Origin: a virus | Strand: one strand, 5' to 3' | DNA: 46,726 bases | IMG/VR virus record: IMGVR_UViG_3300035224_000093 | Location: 1 to 46,726 of that record | Part shown: in pieces, positions 26,280 through 42,447 of the stretch | Layout of the letters: each line of letters starts with the position of its first letter | Numbering within the stretch: position 1 is the first letter of the stretch | Notes under the pieces: model-generated | Seen by the model: only the letters and a program-made list of their open reading frames with translations | Told to the model about the DNA's origin: nothing | Databases searched by the model: none | Translations under genes and position numbers: made by a program

Positions 26280-27359
26280 TTATCCAATTGAGGGAGCGAT
26301 TAAGGCCACAGGTGACCCGCCACTCGACGCAAGATCGAGCGGGAAGTTGTGAGCGTTGCGTTCGTGCATGACTTCCATTCCGAGACCAGCTCGGTTGAGG
26401 ATGTCTGCCCAGGTGTTGATGACGTGTCCGTCACTGGACTGGATGGACTGGTTGAAGTTGAAGCCATTAAGATTGAATGCCATTGTGCTTACACCGAGGG
26501 CGGCAAACCAAATACCAACCACCGGCCAAGCGGCGAGAAAAAAGTGGAGGCTACGGCTATTATTGAATGATGCATATTGAAAGATCAAACGTCCGAAGTA
26601 ACCATGTGCAGCTACGATGTTATATGTCTCTTCTTCTTGACCAAACTTGTAGCCATAGTTCTGGCTGACCTCTTCAGAAGTTTCACGAATAAGTGAGGAC
26701 GTAACAAGCGACCCGTGCATAGCACTGAATAACGACCCACCAAAAACTCCAGCAACACCGAGCATGTGGAAGGGGTGCATGAGAATGTTATGCTCGGCTT
26801 GAAAGACGAACATGTAGTTGAAGGTTCCTGAAATACCCAGAGGCATAGCATCGGAGAACGAGCCTTGACCAAAGGGGTACACCAGGAATACTGCGGACGC
26901 AGCCGCAACAGGAGCAGAGTATGCGACAAAGATCCAAGGCCTCATTCCAAGTCGATAACTAAGTTCCCATTCCCGTCCCATGTAAGAGAAGACACCGATA
27001 AGGAAGTGGAAGATAACGAGTTGAAAGGGACCTCCGTTATAGAGCCATTCGTCGAGTGAGGCTGCCTCCCAGACCGGGTAAAAGTGTAGTCCGATAGCAT
27101 TGCTAGACGGGACAACTGCTCCCGATATAATGTTGTTTCCATAGAGGAGCGATCCTGCAACTGGTTCACGAATGCCATCGATATCTACTGGGGGTGCTGC
27201 GATAAACGCAATAATAAAACAAGTGGTTGCTGCAAGCAGCGTTGGAATCATCAGGACTCCGAACCATCCCACATAGAGACGGTTATTGGTGCTAGTTACC
27301 CAGCTGCAAAAGTCCTGCCAAGTATTCTGTTGTCTTTGTAGCGAGATTGTAGCTGTCAT
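26280..27359 (-). CDS. psbA: Photosystem II D1 protein
   Basis: This 359-residue, full-length D1 keeps photosystem II repaired during infection. Key residues are intact by count: Tyr161 (YZ), His190, His198, His215, His272, Asp170, Glu189, Ser264, His332, Glu333, His337, Asp342 and Ala344, with a 15-residue C-terminal extension after Ala344 for processing. Residue 130 is Glu ([12 protein letters not shown]), the high-light D1:2 state. No intron is present. Upstream are a T-arm-like minihelix and hli-cassette genes; a lectin-like gene follows after 3 nt. The gene is of host origin, as known in cyanophages. Confidence 0.98.
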
Positions 27360-31059: not shown

Positions 31060-31750
31060 TTGAATGCTCAAAGAATGCTGGCATACGAGCTGATTTGGTG
31101 GCAGAAAGTTGAGGTGCTTTGCCCTCATACATCAACCGATCACTAGAATCGAGCCAGAATTTTTTATCTAAATATTGAGAGGTAGTATTATTACCTAGTG
31201 GTTGCATAACCCAATTGATAGTTGCCTTACGCAACTTATCTAAAGAGGGGGAAGCCACGAGGTTAAGTTCTTTACAGACGATTGAATTAGCCCCGACATG
31301 GATCTGTTCATCTCGTGACACGTCGGCTGAAACTGTACGCATTCCAGCGTCACCATTAAACCGTAGAAAGGGAAGTAGAACGAAGAAAATCGCACGCTCG
31401 GCCACCATCGCTTTAAGGATCGTATGGTCTGGATGCGCAATCCAAGCTTCTCGGAGCGCCAACGCTTCTTTCTCCGCCTTTGGATCCACGCCGTGAGCAT
31501 TGGCAATGAAATTGAGAGCCAAATCGTGTCTCTCCTCATCTTTGACATTGGAAAGTAACAACTCCCGCGCCAATTCTGGTACGTCATTGGCAAGAGCATC
31601 AGTTATAAAATCTCCCACAGGTAGTTCCATATGTCGTAGCGCAATTACACGGTGCAGGGTCTCCTGGCTTCCATCCCTGACTGTACCGGCAGTGGTCTGG
31701 ACTGGTGTCCATTTTCTTTTTCTTGATAGTAGTTTCTGATACGGGTTCAT
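31034..31750 (-). CDS. nrdB: Ribonucleotide reductase small subunit (ferritin-like)
   Basis: This 238-residue protein has the four-helix dimetal pattern: Glu about 42, then DEERH with Glu 72 and His 75, Glu 118 (MVAERAIF) and DEQIH with Glu 148 and His 151. Four residues after His 75, where the radical tyrosine of E. coli NrdB stands, there is Leu (EERHDLAL). The start overlaps nrdA by 4 nt (ATGA). It would generate the radical needed by the large subunit, supplying dNTPs for replication. It is shorter than usual NrdB (about 325-375 residues), as phage forms can be. Confidence 0.82.
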   Translation of the reverse strand: MNPYQKLLSRKRKWTPVQTTAGTVRDGSQETLHRVIALRHMELPVGDFITDALANDVPELARELLLSNVKDEERHDLALNFIANAHGVDPKAEKEALALREAWIAHPDHTILKAMVAERAIFFVLLPFLRFNGDAGMRTVSADVSRDEQIHVGANSIVCKELNLVASPSLDKLRKATINWVMQPLGNNTTSQYLDKKFWLDSSDRLMYEGKAPQLSATKSARMPAFFEHSNVNLPSYA

Positions 31751-33126
31751 TCTTGACAGTCACAGGTAAGTGGTTCGAGGTTTGATTCGTTAAATAATGA
31801 AGCTAAATAGTCGTCCACGTCACCTTCGTCAAGAGCCGCGTAAGCGTTACTCTTATCCTGAGTGTCACCCATAACTTGCAGACTGTAATAGAGGCTAGTT
31901 TGTGGTCCTAGCAGCCAAGTCTTGATGAACTGATCGTCGTAAGTAACAACGTCAGACCACGAGTTGTAAGAGTAGCCGTGAGATAGGCCAGTTTGTTGAA
32001 GTAGGGTCATGATGCCATCGGCAACACGTGTATAGTCCAACCAACCAACTTCTGAGGCAACTTCTACGTCACCATAATTATATGTCTGTACTCCAAATGC
32101 CCCGCTGTCTCGATCAACAGTACGGGAGATAGGTGGTGCAATTTCTGGTGTACAAGTAAAGCCATCAACATCTTGTGAGCGATAACTACAAGATGCAGTA
32201 GGAGCAATAGCAAATGCTCTACTCATATTATGTACACGTGCAATAGCAGCAGCTTGTTCAATACCTGAAGCAAACTGTTCTACCAGTGCAAAGCTAGGAC
32301 ATTGAATGATCTCCCCATCAATGTATTGATCTAAAGCAACTCCAAAGTCACGATAGGTAACTCCATATCGCATGAGGAGATTTGCCAATCCCAACATTCC
32401 AAGTCCAACTTGTCTATCGATATCAGACGAGAGGTATTCACCAGATTCTCCAACACCTGTTTGGCTATGGAGCTTGCACAACTCGGACATGCCTTCAACA
32501 AAAGCACGGGGGATAGTGTCGAATTCACAGGCACCGAGATTGACATGTTGTAAGAGGCAAGTTCCTCGTGAGGGCAAATAAACCTCAAGGCAGACGTTAC
32601 CGTATATTCTGTTTCCATCATTGTCGTATCGTACTTTGTTTAACCAGACATCGCCTGATTTAATAGAGTGTAAGATCTGTTCCTTAAACGAACAATTCTC
32701 CCACCACTCTTCGGTGATGTTGATGCATCGTTTGACCCAAGGTAGTTCGGATCTGTTAGCAGTAACAAACTCAAGTGAATCAGGATGGGATAAATCAAGA
32801 TGCAGCACAATAGCTCCATTCTTGTAAATCCCGCCACGTCGGAGGATTTCATTTAGTGTGCTATATATTTTACCGAAGCTGACAGGGCCAGATGCAACAA
32901 CACCTGACTCTCTGACATAACCCTTAGGGTCAAGATCAGATAGGTGAATAGCACAACCTGCTCCATATCTCAAAGCATGAGACGCGAACTTCCAGCTGGC
33001 TTCAATGCCTTCAGGGCCTTCCATTTCATTGGAGACCTTAAATACTGTGCAGGATACTGGTAGACGCCCTGTAGGGTCATCCATCCAGGATTGAACACGC
33101 CCTGTGCGTGAGATTAGATTAGTCAT
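31747..33126 (-). CDS. nrdA: Ribonucleotide reductase large (catalytic) subunit
   Basis: This 459-residue reductase has no ATP cone. RNR-typical stretches are RLPVSCTVFKV (first thiol region), ASHALRYGAGCAIHLSDLDP, RQVGLGMLGLANLLMRYGVT, AIAPTASCSYRSQDVDGFTC and a C-terminal thiol pair in PLTCDCQE. The active-site loop reads QHVNLGACEF (about 194-202) where class I enzymes have NLCxE. The spacing of Cys and Glu is therefore shifted. It pairs with the overlapping small-subunit gene. A CGATACGACA copy occurs within the coding region at 32622-32631. Confidence 0.85.
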   Translation of the reverse strand: MTNLISRTGRVQSWMDDPTGRLPVSCTVFKVSNEMEGPEGIEASWKFASHALRYGAGCAIHLSDLDPKGYVRESGVVASGPVSFGKIYSTLNEILRRGGIYKNGAIVLHLDLSHPDSLEFVTANRSELPWVKRCINITEEWWENCSFKEQILHSIKSGDVWLNKVRYDNDGNRIYGNVCLEVYLPSRGTCLLQHVNLGACEFDTIPRAFVEGMSELCKLHSQTGVGESGEYLSSDIDRQVGLGMLGLANLLMRYGVTYRDFGVALDQYIDGEIIQCPSFALVEQFASGIEQAAAIARVHNMSRAFAIAPTASCSYRSQDVDGFTCTPEIAPPISRTVDRDSGAFGVQTYNYGDVEVASEVGWLDYTRVADGIMTLLQQTGLSHGYSYNSWSDVVTYDDQFIKTWLLGPQTSLYYSLQVMGDTQDKSNAYAALDEGDVDDYLASLFNESNLEPLTCDCQE

Positions 33127-33127
33127 T

Positions 33128-33505
33128 TTAAATTAAGTCTTTGAATTCTGCTTTCTTAAAGTTGGGTCCCTTCAGAACCTTTCCATCGCCTCTGTAGATA
33201 GGCTTACCGTCTTCCCCTAGCTTCGACATGTTCGCTCTGTGAACACGTCTCATAGCTTCGTCTAGGTCCCAATCCTGGGATGCTGCATACTGAAAGCATA
33301 CATAAACTAAGTCAGCTAGTTCGTTGAGTTGATTCTCTTCTGGTTCGTGGTGATAAGCCTCGTGGAATTCACTCCACTCCTCATCGATCAAACATTTCTG
33401 GATCAGTCGTCCACTCTTCCCAGTCGCAACTAAATTGTAAGCTGTTCGGAATTCCGTTGCTTGGTCCAGTAAGCTCTGATTCATATATTGTTTGTTCAAG
33501 TTCAT
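33128..33505 (-). CDS. MazG-like nucleotide pyrophosphohydrolase
   Basis: This 125-residue protein has the all-alpha NTP-PPase pattern: LIDEEWSEFHEAYHH (ExxE type) then NQLNELADLVYVCFQYA (ExxD type), ending DGKPIYRGDGKVLKGPNFKK. Such enzymes hydrolyse (d)NTPs to the monophosphate and are frequent in cyanophages. The first 40 codons overlap the end of the DUF3310-like gene in another frame by up to 125 nt. An internal ATG at 33484 would shorten the overlap slightly. It lies next to nrdA, fitting nucleotide metabolism. Confidence 0.78.
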   Translation of the reverse strand: MNLNKQYMNQSLLDQATEFRTAYNLVATGKSGRLIQKCLIDEEWSEFHEAYHHEPEENQLNELADLVYVCFQYAASQDWDLDEAMRRVHRANMSKLGEDGKPIYRGDGKVLKGPNFKKAEFKDLI

Positions 33506-33671
33506 GTTGTAGGTAGTGGATTGCTTTGGTTAGGTCGTTTACTTTGTCGCCTTTGAATTCACAACGGCAGATGTACTTGACTGCATTAGCTTGAAAGAAA
33601 CTAAGGTTCTGTTCAACTATGAAGTCTCCTACTTTCCAGTTGTTTCCGTAATGCTCGGGTGAGAAGGCCAT
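33381..33671 (-). CDS. DUF3310-like protein
   Basis: This 96-residue protein begins MAFSPEHYGNNWKVGDFIVE and continues FFQANAVKYICRCEFKGDKV, then DLTKAIHYLQHEL. That is the HY...VGDFI...KYI.R...K....DL.KA..YL pattern of DUF3310 (often called SaV-like or nucleotide-kinase-like) in phages. It overlaps nblA by 43 nt and the MazG-like gene by 125 nt. The biochemical role is unproven; the neighbourhood is nucleotide metabolism. The start was set at the family-typical MAFSPEHYG rather than an earlier codon. Confidence 0.75.
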   Translation of the reverse strand: MAFSPEHYGNNWKVGDFIVEQNLSFFQANAVKYICRCEFKGDKVNDLTKAIHYLQHELEQTIYESELTGPSNGIPNSLQFSCDWEEWTTDPEMFDR

Positions 33672-33871
33672 TGTTTTACTAGTTGGGATACGTTGTTGCC
33701 TAAGACATAACACTGCTCTTGCAGTGCCATGAATAGTGTGATGATGTCTTTTTTGTCCGCCTTAGGTAGCAGGTCGTCAAGCCTTCTTAACTTGAACTCC
33801 TGTTCCATCGTCAATTCCGTGATAGGCATTGGTGGGATCCCAAAGGATTGGTTGTTTTGCTGTGTTGTCAT
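33629..33871 (-). CDS. nblA: NblA-like phycobilisome-degradation adaptor
   Basis: This 80-residue protein carries the NblA pattern: ELTMEQEFKLRRLDDLL (about 19-35), then DIITLFMALQEQCYVLGNN and SQLVKQW (about 42-68). The LxxEQEFxLRR block and the LxxQ...xNN..QL helix are family hallmarks. NblA tethers phycobiliproteins to the Clp protease so the antenna is degraded. It has an extra N-terminal 16 and C-terminal 12 residues. It begins inside the 3' end of the exonuclease gene (95-nt overlap) and ends within the DUF3310-like gene. Viral NblA is known in cyanophages. The call is by motif only. Confidence 0.82.
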   Translation of the reverse strand: MTTQQNNQSFGIPPMPITELTMEQEFKLRRLDDLLPKADKKDIITLFMALQEQCYVLGNNVSQLVKQWPSHPSITETTGK

Positions 33872-34544
33872 ACTCTTCATTGGTTAAGATCTTTGCAAGG
33901 CGTGCATTCATTAGTGCTACATCCTCACCAAGATCTTTCTCAGCAAAGGCACCAACAATAGTTTTCCAGTTGTATCCGTGTTCTTCAAACAAAGCTACTG
34001 CTCGTTTGATTCCAATACCAGGTACTCCGCTGTATCCATCTGTCTGATCACCAGCTAGTGCTTGGATGTAATGCCATCGCATCCCCTCTTCTGGTGTTAC
34101 AACGATGGTCTCATCCATGTTGTAAACCATTCCTGGGATTTGTTTCATGTCCTTGTCAGGACTACATATGACATTACCAGGATAATCTGTAGCGTAAATG
34201 CCCATAGCATCGTCCGCCTCAAGAGTTGGTAACTTGATAACTTCATAGCGATTGCCTAGTTCGTTTATGACACGTTTGTAGCCACATGGCTTCTTACGAT
34301 TTCGATGTCCTTTATAATCGGGACAAATTTCTTTGCGGAAATTCTTGGAGTCACTAAAGAAGAGGATCATCTCTTCACTGTCAAAGAAGTTATCTCGGAT
34401 ACGTTTAAGGTCGCGCTCTACGCACTTCATTGCTTCACTGAATTGACTGGTGACAACAATTACGTCATCTCCAAAGTCAATCTCTGTTTCGCAACTAGCA
34501 CAGCACTTATAAACGATATAGTCGGCATCAATTAGGAGCTTCAT
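33777..34544 (-). CDS. 5'-3' exonuclease (T7 gp6-like, FEN family)
   Basis: This 255-residue FEN-type nuclease shows LLIDADYIVY (first acidic motif), CPDYKGHRNRKKPCGYKR (helical arch), LEADDAMG, ICSPDKDMKQIPG and AGDQTDGYSGVPGIGIKRA (H3TH). It degrades host DNA, removes primers and generates recombinogenic ends in T7-type replication. Its ATG shares a base with the polymerase stop (TGATG). Its last 30 codons are overprinted by nblA. Confidence 0.92.
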   Translation of the reverse strand: MKLLIDADYIVYKCCASCETEIDFGDDVIVVTSQFSEAMKCVERDLKRIRDNFFDSEEMILFFSDSKNFRKEICPDYKGHRNRKKPCGYKRVINELGNRYEVIKLPTLEADDAMGIYATDYPGNVICSPDKDMKQIPGMVYNMDETIVVTPEEGMRWHYIQALAGDQTDGYSGVPGIGIKRAVALFEEHGYNWKTIVGAFAEKDLGEDVALMNARLAKILTNEEYDNTAKQPILWDPTNAYHGIDDGTGVQVKKA

Positions 34545-41592: not shown

Positions 41593-42447
41593 CTAGCTAA
41601 AAACACTAGATAGCGCCTCATCCCTTGCCTTATCTGTCGCCTTGGCATAGCGCAAGACGGTCTTGTAAAGCTTCCAGCCACCAAGGTCCATAAGCACTCT
41701 TAGTGGTACTCCTGCTTCTACACTCCAGGTTGCAAAGCTATGTCGTAACGAATGGAATACATAGTGTGGCTCCTTGCCAATTCGTTTAGTGGCTTTCTTG
41801 AAGTGCCAAAGCACCTGCTTACCATCAGTCCATTCATCACCAAAGATTGCACAGTCTGGGTGTGTTCCAATGACACGCTTCTCTAAGATGTTACGGATGG
41901 GATCAGCGATAGGTATAGCTCTCCAATCACCATTCTTGGTGTTGAATCCTGGCCTACCTCCAAAGTACAACTTGTTCTGTTGTAAATCAATGTCCTTAGC
42001 CTTGATGGTTAAGCATTCAGTCATGCGTCCACCAGTACAAACAGCGAACCTGATTAACTCAGATAATGCAGGTCTGGTAGTACTACATAACGCATCAACT
42101 TCATCCCTAGTAAAGAACCAAGGGCGTCCTTGTGCTTCTTTGTATTGTTTGACCTTAGGTGGTGCAAACTCAATCTCTTCCTCATCGTAGAGGTGAGCTA
42201 ATACTGTGGTTACTGGTGCAATCCTCCGATTGATAGTAGAACCAGGCATCTTTCTATCCTCACATGCCTGCTGATAGAACTTAAGGTACTTCCTTGTAAT
42301 ATCCACTAAGGGATAATCATCTCCAGCAAACTTGGTGAAGTGGTTGCAGTTGATGAGTGCGGTGTTTCTACCTCCTCCATGTTTCCATGAATAACGTGTG
42401 TTGAATGTGTAGTCCATGCCCTGTTTCCAGGTAGTGATTTCAGTCAT
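41593..42447 (-). CDS. int: Tyrosine recombinase / integrase
   Basis: This 284-residue site-specific recombinase has a SAM-like N-terminal domain (about 1-105) and a catalytic domain with Arg 141 (CTGGRMTE), a Lys in TKNGDWR (about 171), HSLRH (His 232, Arg 235), Trp 258 (LGGW) and Tyr 267 (VLRYAKA). All catalytic residues are present. T7-like cyanophages often carry such integrases beside RNA polymerase. No tRNA-derived attP is recognisable next to the gene. It overlaps the MarR-like gene by 8 nt and is followed by a terminator. Confidence 0.93.
   Translation of the reverse strand: MTEITTWKQGMDYTFNTRYSWKHGGGRNTALINCNHFTKFAGDDYPLVDITRKYLKFYQQACEDRKMPGSTINRRIAPVTTVLAHLYDEEEIEFAPPKVKQYKEAQGRPWFFTRDEVDALCSTTRPALSELIRFAVCTGGRMTECLTIKAKDIDLQQNKLYFGGRPGFNTKNGDWRAIPIADPIRNILEKRVIGTHPDCAIFGDEWTDGKQVLWHFKKATKRIGKEPHYVFHSLRHSFATWSVEAGVPLRVLMDLGGWKLYKTVLRYAKATDKARDEALSSVFS

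Follow-up and report, generated by a model that had tools for sequence, protein, structure and literature searches.

The 46.7 kb record of an uncultured virus in IMG/VR, analysed here as one stretch (the window), very probably carries a functional viral nblA gene that was captured 3′ of the gp6-like exonuclease gene, with its leader lying over the old exonuclease end and its product serving as an adaptor for degradation of the light-harvesting antenna. The frame (33871-33629, minus strand) runs from ATG to stop over 80 uninterrupted codons in a replication and nucleotide module of the order pol - exo - nblA - DUF3310 - mazG - RNR (Table 1). A further in-frame ATG at 33880 would add three codons to nblA; the relatives keep the ATG at 33871. 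For comparison, 119 relatives were confirmed in IMG/VR contigs and 80 of them retained, together with 37 phage records in INPHARED.

Table 1. Location of nblA, its overlaps and neighbouring genes in the window.
Feature	Position	Strand	Evidence or remark
nblA, 80 aa (MTTQQNNQSFGIPPMPITELTMEQEFKLRR...LVKQWPSHPSITETTGK)	33629..33871	-	open frame; Pfam PF04485; open in relatives
NblA domain	33671..33817	-	Pfam positions 1-49 of 50
T7 gp6-like 5′-3′ exonuclease, 255 aa	33777..34544	-	Pfam 5_3_exonuc_N E=2e-10; phrog_107 E=3e-65
nblA 5′ end inside exonuclease 3′ end: 95-nt overlap, nblA in +1	33777..33871	-	38-110 nt in 92 loci
Part A of overlap: nblA start codon and leader over the old exonuclease terminus, reaching the PILWDP motif at exonuclease codon 237	33834..33871	-	
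Part B of overlap: exonuclease C-terminal tail (TNAYHGIDDGTGVQVKKA and stop) over NblA conserved block	33777..33833	-	
DUF3310 gene, ATG 33671 (GTG alternative 33713)	33381..33671	-	Pfam DUF3310 E=1.4e-8
MazG/PRA-PH-like pyrophosphohydrolase	33128..33505	-	Pfam; phrog_671; overlaps DUF3310
Ribonucleotide reductase	31747..33126	-	Pfam Ribonuc_red_lgC
psbA (D1), full length	26280..27359	-	Pfam Photo_RC E=1.2e-87
hli-like gene, 63 aa	27885..28076	-	Chloroa_b-bind E=0.009, below cut-off; RAERLNGRFAMMG motif

The first-pass annotation had proposed NblA on the strength of an EQEFKLRR block, which is present in the product, and had named a profile search of the family as the check. The single sequence of the window protein passed the Pfam NblA model PF04485 narrowly (E=1.2e-5, 26.1 bits against a gathering cut-off of 25), and when the whole record was searched by profile, PF04485 was passed again and this frame was the sole NblA match. 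Among the phage relatives, 35 of 39 matched PF04485 at E≤0.01 (best 5e-9), with 28.0 bits for the S-TIP37 protein. A profile built from the 39 relatives in turn reached the NblA crystal structure 3cs5 (E=1.4e-4, profile positions 12-65), and 1ojh, 2q8v and 2qdo at E-values of 0.05-0.2, one non-NblA chain being ranked last. Residues L20, E23, Q24, L35, A49, L50, Q51, Q53, N59, L64 and W68 were invariant across the 39 sequences, and both the block and the C-terminal LVKxW region typical of NblA were conserved. The cut-off of the NCBIfam equivalog NF045916, which is stricter than the family and does not define PF04485 membership, was not reached by the window protein (17 vs 100 bits), and the P-SSP7 copy fell below the reach of the NblA model in the genome search. 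An AlphaFold model, computed from an alignment of the window and IMG/VR loci only, predicted a small helix-loop-helix with helices at residues 22-37 and 40-67 (pLDDT ca. 82-92 over residues 21-70, pTM 0.43). Foldseek searches of this model against PDB and BFVD returned nothing significant and no NblA structure, as expected since a two-helix hairpin with a pTM of 0.43 gives too little for Foldseek. By homology the frame is thus identified as NblA, its activity being predicted.

The closest known counterparts are the nblA genes of clade B T7-like cyanopodoviruses, such as S-TIP37 and P-SSP7 (PSSP7_019A), which are alike in the gene and in its place between the exonuclease and DUF3310/mazG/RNR. 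Their overlaps with the exonuclease gene are 95 nt and 107 nt, respectively, against 95 nt in the window, and only sequence divergence sets them apart, their products being 64% and 54% identical to that of the window. Some public records, that of P-SSP7 among them, already carry this gene under an uncharacterized or hypothetical label. With cyanobacterial NblA (PF04485; 1ojh, 2q8v, 2qdo, 3cs5) the window protein shares the L-x-x-EQ-F-x-x-R block, two helices and L..K.W near the C-terminus, whereas overall identity is low, and it has its own N-terminal leader, which contains proline and is encoded on top of exonuclease codons, and its own C-terminal extension of about 12 residues, overlapping DUF3310. 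The freshwater cyanophages Ma-LMM01, MaMV-DC and PaV-LD, which are other phage types, also carry nblA with reported phycobilin loss, but according to PMC9602691 their genes group apart from those of marine cyanopodoviruses in the nblA tree.

Viral nblA beside psbA and hli in T7-like cyanophages is already published (Nadel et al. 2019; Nadel et al. 2025). A 2022 paper refers to Nadel et al. 2019 for nblA predicted in 14 cyanopodovirus isolates and states that phage NblAs on expression lead to phycobilin loss (PMC9602691), and psbA with hli is described as typical of clade B T7-like cyanophages in PMC9381782. Nadel et al. 2025 (Nature 648:434), as cited in PMC12892361 and PMC13386980, report that viral NblA affects oceanic photosynthesis, and a review citing that work puts the estimated effect at as much as 5% of photosynthetic light capture worldwide (PMC12892361). 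Viral NblA alters light capture of infected marine cyanobacteria, and this genome is another carrier; the present comparison shows, region by region, which frame is constrained. The open literature, taken without Nadel et al. 2019 and 2025, yielded no discussion of the exonuclease/nblA overlap, for which we claim no priority.

The 95-nt overlap in another frame described earlier is exact, and the arrangement is conserved: exonuclease and nblA overlapped, by 38-110 nt, in all 92 loci in which both could be placed, always with nblA in +1 relative to the exonuclease. This set includes some near-duplicates and leaves out S-RIP2, the exonuclease of which gave two separate matches, probably owing to a broken frame in that record. 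In seven related cyanopodoviruses in which nblA was not detected, the exonuclease reached no more than two residues past a PIL-x-TP-like motif. At 19 of the 92 carrier loci it likewise stopped soon after PILxTP and short of the NblA block, which leaves an overlap of ≤56 nt. At the remaining loci it read on, and the added residues (e.g. YRIDDGTGVQ) are what the NblA block ELTMEQEFKLRR encodes in the exonuclease frame. The ancestral exonuclease end is covered by the leader of NblA only, some 13 codons including the start codon, and the last ca. 18 exonuclease residues, which lie over the block, are variable or absent among relatives.

Constraint was compared by entropy at NblA codon positions 1/2/3. 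Values in the leader were 0.88/0.85/0.98, showing mixed constraint with both frames of importance, and in the block over the exonuclease tail (codons 15-31) 0.71/0.25/1.34, so that NblA is the constrained frame there. Synonymous differences in the NblA block, compared with nblA-only codons, were 0.346 vs 0.49 where the exonuclease tail overlaps and 0.373 vs 0.342 where the exonuclease stops earlier, the pairs in both cases not being independent. Silent NblA changes are thus somewhat suppressed only under the tail, and the tail is at most weakly constrained. This paired comparison of long and short tails was used in place of a codon-shuffle null, which was dropped as it ignores relatedness and the set had been picked for long tails.

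The order of events may be read as follows. An ancestral phage of this T7-like group most likely took up nblA 3′ of its exonuclease gene. The nblA start would have been taken from exonuclease TAT-GAC codons in +1, so that the leader overprints the old exonuclease end, and in most lineages the exonuclease would in turn have read over the NblA block and so acquired a C-terminal tail, which is 18 residues long here. The earlier description of nblA as overprinted on the exonuclease accordingly stands for the start codon and leader, which cover ancestral exonuclease codons, and fails for the conserved block, where the NblA frame is the constrained one. Similarly, the block does lie inside the present 3′ end of the exonuclease gene, but the tail found there is variable or absent and the ancestral end was at PILxTP.

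Two readings that deny a captured gene were weighed against these data. The frame could be a spurious ORF that exists by chance where the exonuclease and DUF3310 genes run over it, as both of its ends and much of its length are overlapped and it is left unannotated in the S-TIP37, S-SBP1 and NATL1A-7 records. Codons 32-66, which are free of exonuclease overlap and for the most part of DUF3310 overlap, nevertheless displayed conserved residues and a strong codon-position bias (0.75/0.42/1.39), a protein-coding signature, and the frame was open in every relative examined, so the stops in close relatives that the first-pass annotation had named as counter-evidence did not appear. The frame is under purifying selection, and a chance origin, refuted by this conservation, has a negligible likelihood. 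True de novo overprinting, in which the frame arose inside the exonuclease and merely resembles NblA, would account for the long +1 overlap in all carriers and for the start codon and leader covering old exonuclease codons. Only for that start codon and leader is it true that the new frame originates inside the older one. Most of the NblA body is situated past the point where the ancestral exonuclease ended, and its homology to cellular NblA means that it did not originate within the exonuclease in another frame; the overlapped tail is absent from the nblA-less phages, and over the block the constrained frame is that of NblA. As the matches in Pfam and in the PDB profile search extend over the entire body, de novo overprinting is strongly disfavoured and we regard it as exceedingly improbable.

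Capture by an exonuclease-bearing phage is the reading preferred here. In 9515-10a and NATL2A-133 no nblA was found at this place and the exonuclease runs straight into DUF3310. A scan of genome contigs identified no cellular nblA donor, since all matches were exonuclease- or RNR-flanked on phage-like contigs within MAGs or single-cell genomes. As a separate observation, a contig binned as Planctomycetota, divergent and cyanopodovirus-like (L114), holds an nblA-like frame at the exonuclease end (1423-1716); its exonuclease and RNR have 41% and 65% identity, respectively, and its exonuclease ends immediately ahead of the NblA block.

The nblA ATG of most carriers arises from the conserved exonuclease codons TAT-GAC (Tyr-Asp) when these are read in +1, and several carriers with TAC instead of TAT use an ATG slightly further downstream. 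The start is set some 30 codons into the 3′ part of the exonuclease gene, and a Shine-Dalgarno (SD)-like motif at normal spacing was found at one of 56 distinct nblA starts, compared with 22 of 42 for the exonuclease and 11% for ATGs in general. SD-independent initiation is common in cyanobacteria. The SD-less start is consistent with such initiation or with help from ribosomes crossing the exonuclease gene, and a start inside the exonuclease without a ribosome-binding site suggests why nblA often escapes annotation. It is conceivable, though rather doubtful, that NblA output depends on exonuclease translation, a tie which the first-pass annotation had drawn from the overprinting. This would couple antenna destruction to a DNA-degrading/recombination enzyme, the tail existing solely through this arrangement.

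As to function, the product would be a small helix-hairpin adaptor that probably acts as the cyanobacterial NblA does, forming dimers, binding phycobiliproteins and handing them to the host ClpC protease, in line with the mechanism of NblA as a ClpC adaptor that binds phycobilisome proteins, reviewed in PMC7966870. Phycobilisome breakdown would free amino acids and lower light harvesting during infection, while the phage psbA and hli would sustain photosystem II. A protein of NblA fold could also have shifted to another job, e.g. steering ClpC to other host proteins. Some relatives infect Prochlorococcus (P-SSP7, P-SSP3, NATL1A-7), which to our knowledge is without phycobilisomes, and the low NF045916 score may be read in the same direction. 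P-GSP1, infecting Prochlorococcus MED4, has kept a strongly diverged NblA-like frame (L095, 2180-2407), and since the P-SSP7 copy was missed by the model, NblA function may not be uniform. Such a shift is nonetheless improbable for the window protein, as the typical block and LVKxW region are conserved and phycobilin loss is attributed to phage NblAs (PMC9602691). A role in antenna degradation remains the favoured function.

The neighbourhood was largely as first described. Overlap of the nblA end with a DUF3310-like gene was borne out, at 43 nt from ATG 33671 or 85 nt from GTG 33713, as was the presence of psbA in the same genome. The hli claim holds less firmly, as the Pfam match of that frame is weak and its putative identity is based on an ExxNGRxAM motif and on psbA being close by. 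The overlaps form a chain (33128-33871, minus strand), with DUF3310 and mazG also overlapping out of frame (33381-33505, 125 nt). The DNA polymerase region (36556-34544, minus strand) is split into two frames, 36556-36020 and 35989-34544. An HNH-endonuclease ORF (36080-35775) spans the gap between them, and a similar two-frame polymerase was noted in the S-TIP37 record. The window also contains a phage integrase gene (41593-42447, minus strand; Pfam E=3e-21).
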